Positions 12,265-16,400 of a stretch of 44,543 bases of DNA are shown one piece after another; position 1 is the stretch's first letter; every line of letters begins with the position of its first letter. The stretch comes from a virus, in IMG/VR virus record IMGVR_UViG_3300049847_000027, positions 1-44,543 of that record; one strand, 5' to 3'. The notes beneath the pieces are model-generated. The model searched no databases. It saw only the letters and a list, made by a program, of their open reading frames with translations, and was not told where the DNA came from. A program made the position numbers and the translations under genes.

Positions 12265-12463
12265 TATACTTGGCCCTTTTGACTGCGCCTTCACGACGCT
12301 TGTATTCCATCCGCATTGCGTGCAACTCGCTTTGCATCTGCGGCAACTTAGCACGTTGCTTCGCTTTCTGCAACTGAACGATGCGACCGTTCAGTTCGTC
12401 AATCACACGCTTCAATGTTGCGTCGTCATACGTTGGATAACGGCGCGGGTCATCCGCTTTCAT
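12227..12463 (-). CDS. Small basic helical early protein
   Basis: A 78-residue protein with many Lys, Arg and Gln residues. Residues 15-50 (LKRVIDELNGRIVQLQKAK onward) form a probable coiled coil. A GGGGCTTAGG ribosome site precedes the ATG at 12463, which overlaps the stop of the TraR-like gene by four bases. The C-terminus is basic and could touch nucleic acid. No function assigned. Confidence 0.62.
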   Translation of the reverse strand: MKADDPRRYPTYDDATLKRVIDELNGRIVQLQKAKQRAKLPQMQSELHAMRMEYKRREGAVKRAKYNGQHTTNPNEAG

Positions 12464-12669
12464 CCTAAGCCCCTTCGATCACGGCACTTGCCGCAAGCAC
12501 ATTCGTTGATAGATGCGATGAAAACGACACGGGCGAAATACTCCCCACAAAAGAAGCATTCGCCCGGTTCGCCTTTGGGTATCATCGCGGCCCGCTTACA
12601 TACGTCGCCAACAATAAGCGCTGTTTCATTCTCAATGCGGTCATTGGTTGCGTCGATTTCGTCTGCCAC
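12460..12669 (-). CDS. TraR/DksA-like C4 zinc-finger protein
   Basis: A 69-residue protein that starts at a GTG (12669) behind an AGGGGAAAG ribosome site. It begins VADEIDATNDRIENE, an N-terminal helix with acidic residues like TraR, and has a C4 zinc finger made of CFFC (about residues 38-41) and CACGKC near 58-63. TraR/DksA proteins bind in the secondary channel of host RNA polymerase and alter promoter choice without ppGpp. A phage TraR could redirect host transcription. The usual central IP-x-x-R element between the Cys pairs is altered here, so the match is good but not perfect. Confidence 0.8.
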   Translation of the reverse strand: MADEIDATNDRIENETALIVGDVCKRAAMIPKGEPGECFFCGEYFARVVFIASINECACGKCRDRRGLG

Positions 12670-13647: not shown

Positions 13648-13676
13648 AGAATACGACAACCCAATGCGGCTGTCAA
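13648..13676 (-). promoter_or_regulatory. sigma70-type early promoter
   Basis: On the minus strand TTGACA (13676-13671), 17 bases, then TATTCT (13653-13648). The base pattern GTCG before the -10 matches the promoters at 11162 and 14510. The 119 bases between it and the next start codon hold no gene that I can support. Confidence 0.82.
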
Positions 13677-13712: not shown

Positions 13713-13880
13713 TCAACGCTTACCCTTCAATTCCCTTGCGGCCTTGTCCCAGCCCTTGAACCATTCGACAGCCGGGATGCTATCTTGCGGGAAGTACGGG
13801 TTACGATCACGACGCAAGCCGCAAAGGCAAGCGTTATAACCTTCGTTCGCTTCAATGGATTGGTTCAACGTGACGTTCAT
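13713..13880 (-). CDS. Ribosome modulation factor-like microprotein 1
   Basis: A 55-residue frame beginning MNVTLNQSIEANEGYNACLC. The ATG overlaps the stop of the upstream gene (ATGA). The pattern EGYNA-x(n)-NPYF-x(n)-EWFKGWDKA follows that of ribosome modulation factor, whose E. coli form has RGYQAG, CPYQ and SQWLGGW. RMF docks on the 70S ribosome and promotes inactive dimers. A related gene lies at 15395-15559. In phages such short proteins have no proven role; control of host ribosomes is an inference from the family. Confidence 0.78.
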   Translation of the reverse strand: MNVTLNQSIEANEGYNACLCGLRRDRNPYFPQDSIPAVEWFKGWDKAARELKGKR

Positions 13881-14119
13881 AGCGCTTCTATGTCCTCGCT
13901 TACGCCTGACGCTGCAACAGCTTCTTCAAGTGTTATGACGCCCTTTTCAACCAACAGTTCAGCCAAACGGCCAAACGCTTCGGCAGACTTGCGGGCCAGT
14001 GCGTCAGCCCTTTCAAGCTGGCCGTCAGCTTCGTATGCGCCAATGTAAGGGGTCAGCGCATCCGACAATTCGCATTGACGGTCTTTGCTGCCCCATTGGC
14101 CTTTGATTGTTACGCGCAT
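13877..14119 (-). CDS. Small early protein, acidic helical
   Basis: An 80-residue protein. It starts MRVTIKGQWGSKDRQCELSD, a beta strand opening, followed by alanine- and glutamate-rich helices (LERADALARKSAEAFGRLAE), and ends with VSEDIEAL. The fold is probably a small helical domain. It is translationally coupled to the RMF-like gene by an ATGA overlap and lies four bases after the 52-residue microprotein. No family recognised. Confidence 0.65.
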   Translation of the reverse strand: MRVTIKGQWGSKDRQCELSDALTPYIGAYEADGQLERADALARKSAEAFGRLAELLVEKGVITLEEAVAASGVSEDIEAL

Positions 14120-14123
14120 GGCT

Positions 14124-14282
14124 TCAATCCTCGCTTATCTTGAATACGGCAGGCTTGCCGCAAGTCTTGTTCTTGGCTGCGAAGCGCTCGCAACGCACCT
14201 TGCGCGTTTCTTCATCGGTGCGCAAGTCAAGCGCCACATACGAACGAAAGAACCGATTAAGACGCATCTTGAACGATTGCAT
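14124..14282 (-). CDS. Basic 52-residue microprotein
   Basis: From the ATG at 14282 the frame reads MQSFKMRLNRFFRSYVALDL and ends FKISEDQ-like (actual end FKISED) at the TGA at 14124. It contains a CERFAAKNKTCGKPAVFK segment with two Cys and many basic residues. It begins one base after the stop of the 31-residue gene and ends four bases before the next start, so the tight spacing supports it as a real gene. An internal Met six residues in is an alternative start. Function unknown. Confidence 0.6.
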   Translation of the reverse strand: MQSFKMRLNRFFRSYVALDLRTDEETRKVRCERFAAKNKTCGKPAVFKISED

Positions 14283-14283
14283 G

Positions 14284-14379
14284 TCAGACCCAACCGAAGT
14301 AACGAAGGACGGGACGCAGTGCCTTCACATAGAATGCGATAGCAACTGCGGTGCAGACTGCGATAATCACGATTTCCAT
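14284..14379 (-). CDS. 31-residue single-helix membrane microprotein
   Basis: A very short frame starting MEIVIIAVCTAVAIAFYVKA at the ATG at 14379, with an AAGGAA ribosome site seven bases upstream. Residues 3-18 form one membrane helix, and the tail is basic and aromatic (LRPVLRYFGWV). It is the first gene of its operon, after a promoter at 14510-14538 and a leader with a stable hairpin. It could modulate a host inner-membrane protein. Support is the ribosome site, the tight downstream spacing and the clean membrane helix. Confidence 0.58.
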   Translation of the reverse strand: MEIVIIAVCTAVAIAFYVKALRPVLRYFGWV

Positions 14380-14410
14380 TGCGAAGTTCCTTTGCGTGGT
14401 GGCGGTCAAC

Positions 14411-14429
14411 GGCCGGGAACGACCCGGCC
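14411..14429. other. GC-rich leader hairpin
   Basis: A perfect 7-bp stem, GGCCGGG at 14411-14417 with CCCGGCC at 14423-14429, closes a 5-base loop. It lies in the leader of the operon that starts with the 31-residue protein, about 32 bases before the start codon. There is no T-run, so it is not an intrinsic terminator. It may stabilise the leader or shape translation. Confidence 0.5.
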
Positions 14430-14509
14430 ACCCTTCCCCTGTTGGCTACAACCTATCGGCCATCCAACCCGGCGATGCTTTACGATATAGCTACGTTGAC
14501 CATGTGCAA

Positions 14510-14538
14510 AGAATACGACGCCTAACATTGACTGTCAA
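14510..14538 (-). promoter_or_regulatory. sigma70-type early promoter
   Basis: On the minus strand TTGACA (14538-14533), 17 bases, then TATTCT (14515-14510). It drives the operon that begins with the 31-residue membrane protein, after a leader of about 125 bases. Confidence 0.83.
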
Positions 14539-14567
14539 GCGTCGCAAACTACGTCGTTCAGGTTGTA

Positions 14568-14999
14568 TTAAGCTTTCGTTGCCTTCCAATACCGACAGCC
14601 TAGTTCCTTGCGGTCGCCCAATTCGTACAGTTCGACGCTTGAAACGCTACCGTCTGCGGCGTAAATGTCCAGTTCAACAACCTGTGCCGTGCCCACAATG
14701 GGGCCGTGACGACCGTTCAATGGGCCGCCGACTAGGAAGCAATCGACGGTTGGAACGCCCTTGGCATCGTATGTCGTTTCGGCTGGGTAACGCTGCAACT
14801 GTTCAACCGGAACCCAAACGGGTTCAAGGTCTTTCATTGCTACGCGCTTAGGGGTGTCAACAAACCGTTCTTTAACCCAGTTGTCGCCGCTTGGGTTGGA
14901 TTCGTAAACAATATGCGGTGCAGCCTTCGGCCCTGTCACCCATGTATCAGGCTTGTCAGGTTGCGGCAATGGCACGTCGTCATCAATGCGAATGTTCAT
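14568..14999 (-). CDS. Early protein of unknown function
   Basis: A 143-residue protein overlapping the upstream zinc-knuckle gene by four bases (ATGA). It starts MNIRIDDDVPLPQPDKPDTW. Residues 35-50 read SGDNWVKERFVDTPKR, which by chance resembles the HNWVKDRFIDPAPR segment of the TerL in this window. The C-terminal half (TVDCFLVGGPLNGRHGPIVG, then IYAADGSVSSVELYEL) is beta-rich. I know no function. It is the last gene before the promoter at 14510-14538. Confidence 0.66.
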   Translation of the reverse strand: MNIRIDDDVPLPQPDKPDTWVTGPKAAPHIVYESNPSGDNWVKERFVDTPKRVAMKDLEPVWVPVEQLQRYPAETTYDAKGVPTVDCFLVGGPLNGRHGPIVGTAQVVELDIYAADGSVSSVELYELGDRKELGCRYWKATKA

Positions 15000-15187
15000 G
15001 CTATGTAATCATCCGGTTTGCGGTTGTGCGGTGCGACGATCTTAGGACACGACGAACGCTTGTGCGTGTTCGATCCACAATAGCCGCATCGCAAATGCAG
15101 GCGGTTTGACGATCCCGCCCAAGTCTTAGGGCAATTGACTTTTGTATGATTGTTCGCACCGCAATACGTGCAATGTTGTCTAGGCAT
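14996..15187 (-). CDS. Tandem CCHC zinc-knuckle protein
   Basis: A 63-residue protein from the ATG at 15187. It has two exact C-x2-C-x4-H-x4-C zinc knuckles: CTYCGANNHTKVNC near residues 6-19 and CGYCGSNTHKRSSC near 34-47. The linker and ends are basic. Zinc knuckles of this spacing bind single-stranded nucleic acid in retroviral nucleocapsids and some cellular proteins; in phages they are rare as small free proteins. The first knuckle shares the core CGAxNHTKV with the zinc ribbon of the SF2 helicase in this window (27039 onward). Confidence 0.78.
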   Translation of the reverse strand: MPRQHCTYCGANNHTKVNCPKTWAGSSNRLHLRCGYCGSNTHKRSSCPKIVAPHNRKPDDYIA

Positions 15188-15395
15188 CGTCAATACTCCT
15201 AGCTGAAAGTTCCTTGCCACAATGCGAGCATACAACGCGCATGGCGTTCATGCGTTCTTTGAACTTGTGCGCTTTATTCCAGCGCTCTCTTGCTTCTTCG
15301 TTTCCGATGTTCCACTTGCCGGGAAAAGGTGAAACGCGCCAATAGCTACGCTTCGACCTCGGGTAATGCTGCAATTTGATATGCGGCTTGTCCAT
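15180..15395 (-). CDS. Small basic protein with C-terminal CxxC
   Basis: A 71-residue protein, MDKPHIKLQHYPRSKRSYWR onward. It is basic and aromatic in its first 40 residues and ends with VVCSHCGKELSARS, so it has one CxxC pair that could form half of a zinc site. It overlaps its neighbours at both ends (8 bases downstream, TAATG upstream). No family recognised. Confidence 0.66.
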   Translation of the reverse strand: MDKPHIKLQHYPRSKRSYWRVSPFPGKWNIGNEEARERWNKAHKFKERMNAMRVVCSHCGKELSARSIDDA

Positions 15396-15559
15396 TATGC
15401 TTCGTCCCTAGCTTTCTTCCAGCCGTTCATGAAATCGCGGCGTGCGTTAGTACCCATAAAGTAGGGACAGGAATGCAACGCATCCGGCCCGCGAGGTTCG
15501 CCATGAGCAAGCAACGCACGAATGTATGCGTTATAGCCTTCCTGTTCGTATTTGTTCAT
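15395..15559 (-). CDS. Ribosome modulation factor-like microprotein 2
   Basis: A 54-residue frame that starts MNKYEQEGYNAYIRALLAHG at 15559 and ends KKARDEA. It has the RMF order of motifs: QEGYNA, then SCPYF, then FMNGWKKA, closer to E. coli RMF around CPY than the copy at 13713-13880. It is coupled to both neighbours by TAATG overlaps, which strongly supports translation. Together with the other copy it suggests a duplicated ribosome-targeting function; this is inference from sequence pattern only. Confidence 0.8.
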   Translation of the reverse strand: MNKYEQEGYNAYIRALLAHGEPRGPDALHSCPYFMGTNARRDFMNGWKKARDEA

Positions 15560-15804
15560 TATCCAGCCCTCAGTTCAAGTTGACGGGTCAGTTCCTTCAA
15601 GCGCAGCAACGACACACCGCCGCTGCTGCCAACGTGAATGAACTTCGTTGCAACGTCATAGGTGAAGCCGGTAGGCGATACGCCATAAACGCGCTTGTAT
15701 GCTTCGCCATACGCCTTGTATGCGTTGTGTACCTGCTGCGGCGTGCGAAGCTTCTTCGGCACCTTGATACGCGGCGGCTTGACGTGAGATTCAATCTTGA
15801 ACAT
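15559..15804 (-). CDS. Small early protein, helical and basic
   Basis: An 81-residue protein, MFKIESHVKPPRIKVPKKLR onward. A basic Pro-rich N-terminus is followed by a helix containing VHNAYKAYGEAYKRVYG, a loop, and SLLRLKELTRQLELRAG at the C-terminus. The pattern suggests DNA or RNA binding, but no family can be named. It lies between the RMF-like gene (TAATG overlap) and the 15809 gene (5 bases). Confidence 0.64.
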   Translation of the reverse strand: MFKIESHVKPPRIKVPKKLRTPQQVHNAYKAYGEAYKRVYGVSPTGFTYDVATKFIHVGSSGGVSLLRLKELTRQLELRAG

Positions 15805-15808
15805 GCGC

Positions 15809-16081
15809 TTATTCCTTCGCCCATTCGGGCCATTTGAACATCATTTGAAAGCCTGTACCGGCTCGCAATGCTTCTTCGTCGGTCAGGTGCTTATCAGGGT
15901 GCGTTACGTCCTTAAACACGCGCAACAGTTCGACGCACATGCGATCAAAGTGTGCGTCAGAAATGGTCGGTTCGTCAAGCTGGTAATACTTGTATGAATG
16001 CCTGACGTATTCAATGAACAACAGATTCGGGTTCAGTTCGCCAAGGGGTGCTGTTCCCCAATGCCCACATTGAGCGGTCAC
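15809..16081 (-). CDS. Conserved phage protein with SDxxFDxxC motif
   Basis: A 90-residue protein. I place the start at the GTG at 16081, which overlaps the upstream stop (GTGA). The core reads FIEYVRHSYKYYQLDEPTIS, then DAHFDRMCVELL and HPDKHLTDEEALRAGTGFQM. This matches a small phage family with (Y)-x-x-SD-x-x-(Y/F)D-x-x-(C) and a later AGTG, whose start resembles the N-terminal subdomain of NAD-dependent ligases. I do not claim ligase activity because the adenylation domain is absent. Confidence 0.68.
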   Translation of the reverse strand: MTAQCGHWGTAPLGELNPNLLFIEYVRHSYKYYQLDEPTISDAHFDRMCVELLRVFKDVTHPDKHLTDEEALRAGTGFQMMFKWPEWAKE

Positions 16082-16341
16082 GACACGCGCGCCACTTCGC
16101 ACAACCCTAAGTCATCGTGCTTGATGAACTTAAATTGCTTTTCAGTCTTTGCGTTTTGCTTGTATACGCAAATACGAAGCGACTTCCAATTCACTTCTTC
16201 AAGCTTGGCCGTGAAGGATTGACCAATCGCCAGCGAGTCAAACGGATAAAGCGCGTTCGACTTTGGCTTAGGCTTTGCGCCTTTGGCTTGCGGTGAAGAT
16301 TCGACAATTGCAAACGATGGTTGCTTCTTTTCCTGCGACAT
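16078..16341 (-). CDS. Small protein with YPFDxLxxGQSF motif
   Basis: An 87-residue protein. A basic N-terminal linker (MSQEKKQPSFAIVESSPQAK) leads to ALYPFDSLAIGQSFTAKL at about residues 31-48, then a beta-rich end (QFKFIKHDDLGLCEVARVS). The same YPFDxLxxGQSF opening starts the C-terminal domain of the 9517-10080 protein, so the two are probably distant paralogues. It is the first gene of the minus-strand early arc, directly after the promoter at 16372-16400. Function unknown. Confidence 0.74.
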   Translation of the reverse strand: MSQEKKQPSFAIVESSPQAKGAKPKPKSNALYPFDSLAIGQSFTAKLEEVNWKSLRICVYKQNAKTEKQFKFIKHDDLGLCEVARVS

Positions 16342-16371: not shown

Positions 16372-16400
16372 ATACTAACAGCAGTCTAACGGTATGTCAA
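16372..16400 (-). promoter_or_regulatory. sigma70-type promoter, start of the minus-strand early arc
   Basis: On the minus strand TTGACA (16400-16395), 17 bases, then TAGTAT (16377-16372). The start codon at 16341 is about 30 bases downstream, behind a GGGG-containing ribosome site. Confidence 0.82.

Follow-up and report, generated by a model that had tools for sequence, protein, structure and literature searches.

Two small proteins encoded in one gene cluster of a phage belong, judging from their sequences, to the RMF/CrpP domain superfamily as divergent representatives and are not canonical ribosome modulation factors (RMFs). The stretch of DNA analysed, hereafter the window, comes from IMG/VR, where it is a virus record of 44,543 bases. 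Among named phages it is closest to Langgrundblatt1, Langgrundblatt2 and Pfeifenkraut, all of Xanthomonas translucens, and from these relatives we infer a Xanthomonas host. Protein A (55 amino acids, 13713–13880; MNVTLNQSIEANEGYNACLCGLRRDRNPYFPQDSIPAVEWFKGWDKAARELKGKR) and protein B (54 amino acids, 15395–15559; MNKYEQEGYNAYIRALLAHGEPRGPDALHSCPYFMGTNARRDFMNGWKKARDEA) are both on the minus strand where an earlier note on this DNA had placed them, and both have the motifs that it described, in RMF order: GYNA, then N/CPYF and then GW-x-KA (EGYNA, NPYF and WFKGWDKA in A; EGYNA, CPYF and FMNGWKKAR in B). The coupling to neighbouring genes that the note reported is also present. The start of A lies in an ATGA overlap with the 80-amino-acid gene directly upstream (13877–14119, minus strand), which is identical in Langgrundblatt1. 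B is flanked by TAATG junctions, to an 81-amino-acid conserved phage gene directly upstream (15559–15804, minus strand; PHROG_10560, 85–86% identical in the three sister phages) and to a 71-amino-acid gene directly downstream (15180–15395, minus strand). The downstream side of A is uncoupled, with a gap of about 145 nt.

An RMF-only hidden Markov model, run on the 545 window frames of at least 30 amino acids, gave its highest score to B (18.3 bits) and its next highest to A (12.9 bits), and one in 20,000 shuffles of each protein reached its score. The model was built from six cellular RMFs: that of E. coli, which matches Pfam RMF at 79.6 bits, and five others. The Pfam profile (PF04957) matches A with E = 6.4e-6 (26.6 bits) and B with E = 0.011 (16.2 bits), neither of which attains the gathering score of 27.9 bits; against the NCBIfam Rmf/CrpP profile (NF041886), a family spread on mobile elements, both score 15–19 bits (B, 18.6), under the cut-off of 28 that the B homologues of Siara, Bixia and Salva phages exceed. 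At the family level, the B profile aligns with cellular RMF in hhalign at 96.8% (E = 2.6e-10) and recovers the RMF structures 2jrm (E = 3.6e-4) and 6h4n (E = 0.0095) from 177,635 PDB sequences. The A family aligns with the B family at 87.5% and with RMF itself at only 28.5%, so the assignment of A rests on Pfam and on B; the A profile alone found no RMF in the PDB.

Several further comparisons were set aside or gave nothing. A second A profile (A2) matched PDB RMF very strongly, which was discounted as evidence because the profile contains E. coli RMF. A match of the B profile to PDB entry 9k9w (Glr1262) consists of three weak stretches that take in only the first helix and the PYF motif, and was judged coincidental. 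A tblastn search of phages with E. coli RMF gave zero matches, the distance being too great. Single-sequence AlphaFold models, both of low confidence, place helices at residues 7–24 and 37–53 of A (pLDDT 54) and 3–18 and 38–53 of B (pLDDT 66), and Foldseek with these weak models returned no structural match, to RMF or otherwise. The suggestion in the earlier note that both proteins are RMF-like is supported as superfamily homology, more strongly for B (through its phage family) than for A (through Pfam); an RMF-like function and control of host translation are putative.

Both are real genes: purifying selection acts on A, and the homologues of B are conserved. A occurs in all three sister phages (89–100% identity), and in the core shared with Pfeifenkraut the third codon position holds 11 of the 15 changes (dN 0.04, dS 0.60; dN/dS about 0.07). 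B has no copy in any of the three; its relatives are proteins 48–53% identical to it in the Siara and Bixia groups of Stenotrophomonas phages, with weaker ones in Salva and others. The genes that flank the place of B adjoin directly in Pfeifenkraut (...GGATGACATGAACAAGCC...), and B sits between the same two genes in the window (...GGATAATGAACAAATAC...GCATAATGGACAAGCC...). This adjacency, together with the absence of B from the three relatives, points to a clean one-gene gain in the window lineage; three losses are the less likely alternative. A recent tandem duplication giving rise to B from A was rejected, as the two are 31% identical over their alignment and B has closer relatives in other phages, and the best explanation is that A and B are separately acquired phage accessory microproteins. 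Scans of IMG/VR with protein and family profile found no relatives of B or of its 71-amino-acid partner, and none of B turned up in the bacterial genomes scanned with the B family. The frame of the sole, dubious IMG/VR candidate for a relative of A (L004) did not prove RMF-like on reading.

Nor are A and B copies of a host RMF, because canonical RMF is absent from the sampled genomes of the host family. It was found in none of six named Xanthomonadaceae genomes, and a scan of 297 Xanthomonadaceae genomes gave six RMF matches at E ≤ 0.001, of which one lay above the cut-off and none had the RMF N-terminus; none of 35 genomes of the genus Xanthomonas exceeded the Rmf/CrpP cut-off. The E. coli positive control was detected in every host search, and since the first-look filter scored part of the candidates in each genome (21 in the 297-genome scan), the negative is strong, short of absolute. 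Short HPF (PF02482), the natural partner of RMF, is present in all six Xanthomonadaceae genomes. RMF and long HPF are the known ribosome-dimerisation factors, and the C-terminal domain of long HPF was found in none of 198 host genomes. A literature search gave no report of RMF-based ribosome dimerisation in Xanthomonadaceae hosts.

The 71-amino-acid CxxC protein encoded next to B (KPHI..YWRVS..RWNKAHKF..CSHC; PHROG_31936, E = 1.7e-11) has homologues directly downstream of the B homologues of Siara, Bixia and Salva phages. In Siara, BUCT626 and Salva the partner likewise overlaps the RMF-like gene, and 20 columns of its alignment are invariant. Pfeifenkraut has the partner with no RMF-like gene adjoining, and other phages have related sequences. 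That B recurs with this partner in two phage groups unlike each other in other respects suggests that the two genes may form a shared cassette or have a joint role. The cluster also encodes the TraR-like protein that the earlier note had recognized: a DksA/TraR-like zinc-finger protein of 69 amino acids with a GTG start (12460–12669, minus strand), which matches PHROG_54 (E = 6.9e-6) with CxxC...CxxC present and no Pfam match above cut-off, and whose counterparts in related phages are annotated as DksA-like.

Mutagenesis and cryo-EM of RMF assign R3, K5 and R11 to ribosome binding, with a contact to h28, and G23 and R45 to dimerisation and not to binding, R45 touching the anti-Shine–Dalgarno sequence; a single alanine replacement of any conserved residue greatly lowers 100S formation (PMC8126665). 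A and B resemble E. coli Rmf (6h4n, 4v8g, 2jrm) in their length of about 55 amino acids and in a helix–loop–helix predicted at low confidence, retain G16, Y17, P30, Y31, G43 and W44, and have an aromatic residue at W40. They differ from it in being phage genes with a host family that lacks canonical RMF, in falling below the Pfam cut-off and in being much less basic, with predicted isoelectric points of 8.7 (A) and 7.9 (B) against 10.9 for E. coli RMF. Both lack the N-terminal basic arm (R3, K5 and R11): the first basic residue of A is R23, and the seven residues that precede GY in B include a single K. At the positions of C29 and W40, A has N and W and B has C and F; at those of G23 and R45, A has G and D and B has A and K, so neither has the canonical pair, and the A homologue of Langgrundblatt2 has N at the G23 position. 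Several B homologues are acidic (isoelectric points as low as 4.6).

The account that we favour, tentatively, is that A and B are RMF-core accessory proteins that contact the host 30S subunit and form no 100S dimers. They would be produced during infection, would bind the 30S subunit near the platform and anti-Shine–Dalgarno region, or an associated factor, and once bound might tune or block initiation on host mRNA. Counting for this account are the core homology, the evidence that both are real genes, the host without RMF and the DksA/TraR-like gene in the cluster; counting against it are the missing contacts to rRNA and the anti-Shine–Dalgarno sequence (R3, K5 and R11 and, in A, R45), the low net charge and the structure searches, which returned no match. 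B is the better candidate for ribosome contact, as it retains CPY and has K, also basic, in place of R45. If the proteins do bind ribosomes, they would offer phages a route to translation control in hosts seemingly without RMF and long HPF, and would constitute a minimal natural test that separates the residues RMF uses for binding from those it uses for dimerisation.

Almost as likely is a repurposed fold, in which A and B are small adaptors for a target other than the ribosome (a host or defence protein, or nucleic acid) and the RMF domain serves as a compact scaffold. The many protein settings of the domain fit this explanation: it forms the N-terminus of a 153-amino-acid Rhizobium phage protein and the C-terminus of a Cys-containing Serratia phage protein, and is found in larger bacterial proteins and in an actinobacterial plasmid protein named Rmf/CrpP. 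The residues that contact rRNA have been lost, charge varies widely (isoelectric points from 4.2 to 9.0), and an N-terminal Cys cluster replaces the basic arm in some phage members. Against repurposing, the core pattern of aromatic residues and glycines is close enough for profiles to find RMF, and no other target is known. Were A and B not to bind ribosomes, mobile elements would be using the RMF fold as a small, general-purpose scaffold, and a phage gene labelled ‘ribosome modulation factor’ should not be assumed to have that function.

The A homologue of Langgrundblatt2 has another, Cys-containing N-terminus (CIH...CIKC) on the same core. The RMF-like frames of Siara, BUCT626 and BUCT548 extend upstream, in frame, by 26 residues that include four invariant Cys (M-x-CELC...QCWC); the extended loci of these Siara/Bixia proteins are L005:2423–2650, L006:2420–2650 and L007:2420–2650, and in Siara and BUCT626 the annotated start leaves the extension out. 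Between Siara and BUCT548 this segment has seven synonymous and six non-synonymous codon changes (dN/dS <0.1), and its dN of 0.13 against a dS of 1.8 gives it the look of translated sequence. The true start of the Siara gene is probably upstream of the annotated one, and a Cys-rich piece in place of the basic arm may contact nucleic acid in another way. Neither A nor B of the window has the four-Cys extension, in which respect B differs from its relatives Siara gp083 and those of BUCT626 and BUCT548, although this Beaumontvirinae group shares 48–53% identity with B and the same overlapping downstream KPHI/CxxC gene. Siara gp083 (L005:2498–2653) was deposited as ‘RNA polymerase sigma factor’, and the HHpred match in its record is to 4V8G_CV (99.15). 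PDB entry 4v8g includes RMF (chain 4v8g_AV), and the sigma-factor label is probably a naming slip.

The broader proposal that phages of Xanthomonadaceae supply ribosome-acting RMF-fold factors as a translation switch that the host lacks, B together with its coupled CxxC partner, we consider unlikely. Also improbable is that A, B or both are working RMFs, which would dimerise host ribosomes to 100S together with host short HPF and so pause host translation. The short HPF in all six genomes would allow it, and B retains G16, C29, P30, G43 and W44 and is basic at R45. However, where 100S formation is greatly cut by any one conserved-residue alanine replacement (PMC8126665), A lacks R3, K5, R11, C29 and R45 and B lacks R3, K5, R11, G23 and W40; the A family itself varies (N at G23 in Langgrundblatt2), and RMF-based dimerisation in these hosts is absent from the literature that we searched. 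Least probable of all is chance resemblance through short motifs (GYNA, PYF and GW) in unrelated small proteins, because although the single-protein scores of A and B fall under curated cut-offs, the A profile alone recovers no PDB RMF and A aligns with RMF at only 28.5%, B and A are the top two of the window frames, shuffles reach their scores once in 20,000 and the family-level profiles agree.

Two RMF-domain proteins have been reported from a single phage before, so carrying both is not new: Agrobacterium phage Milano, described in 2019, encodes gp60 and gp76 (PMC6588377). The Pfam RMF profile matches three places in Milano, and both RMF-domain proteins are present in the related phages OLIVR4 and 7-7-1. 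These phages are like ours in having two or more RMF-domain microproteins each, but they are different phages with a Rhizobiaceae host, and their proteins are not close in sequence and are shorter or N-terminally extended. The Serratia and Rhizobium phage proteins mentioned above exceed the Pfam RMF cut-off. Our literature search found no paper on the function of these phage RMF-domain proteins. Among bacterial proteins, two longer ones (L136 and L139; open frames of about 250–300 amino acids) have an N-terminal RMF-like domain and similar C-terminal ends.

Other features lie in the same region. A small protein at 14996–15235 (minus strand) has two CX2CX4HX4C zinc knuckles of the CCHC, retroviral type (CTYCGANNHTKVNC and CGYCGSNTHKRSSC); its top Pfam match is an AIR2-like knuckle (E = 4.9e-4, below cut-off), and a search of the three sister phages gave no match. 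The 97 amino acids encoded at 15809–16102 (minus strand) are a stand-alone Nlig-Ia domain, the NAD+-binding part of NAD-dependent DNA ligase, scoring 39.6 bits where the cut-off is 27; the protein is 92–93% identical in the sister phages, and no remainder of a ligase was seen adjoining it. Promoter-like sites on the minus strand, which are consensus matches only (10 of 12 positions each), lie upstream of the cluster of B (16372–16400, TTGACA-17-TAGTAT) and of the genes leading to A (14510–14538, TTGACA-17-TATTCT), and such sites are only slightly more numerous in the region than in shuffles. The site at 14510–14538 and a further TTGACA-17-TATTCT site at 13648–13676 (minus strand) have GTCGTATTCT in common, and the pair is possibly a repeated phage promoter.
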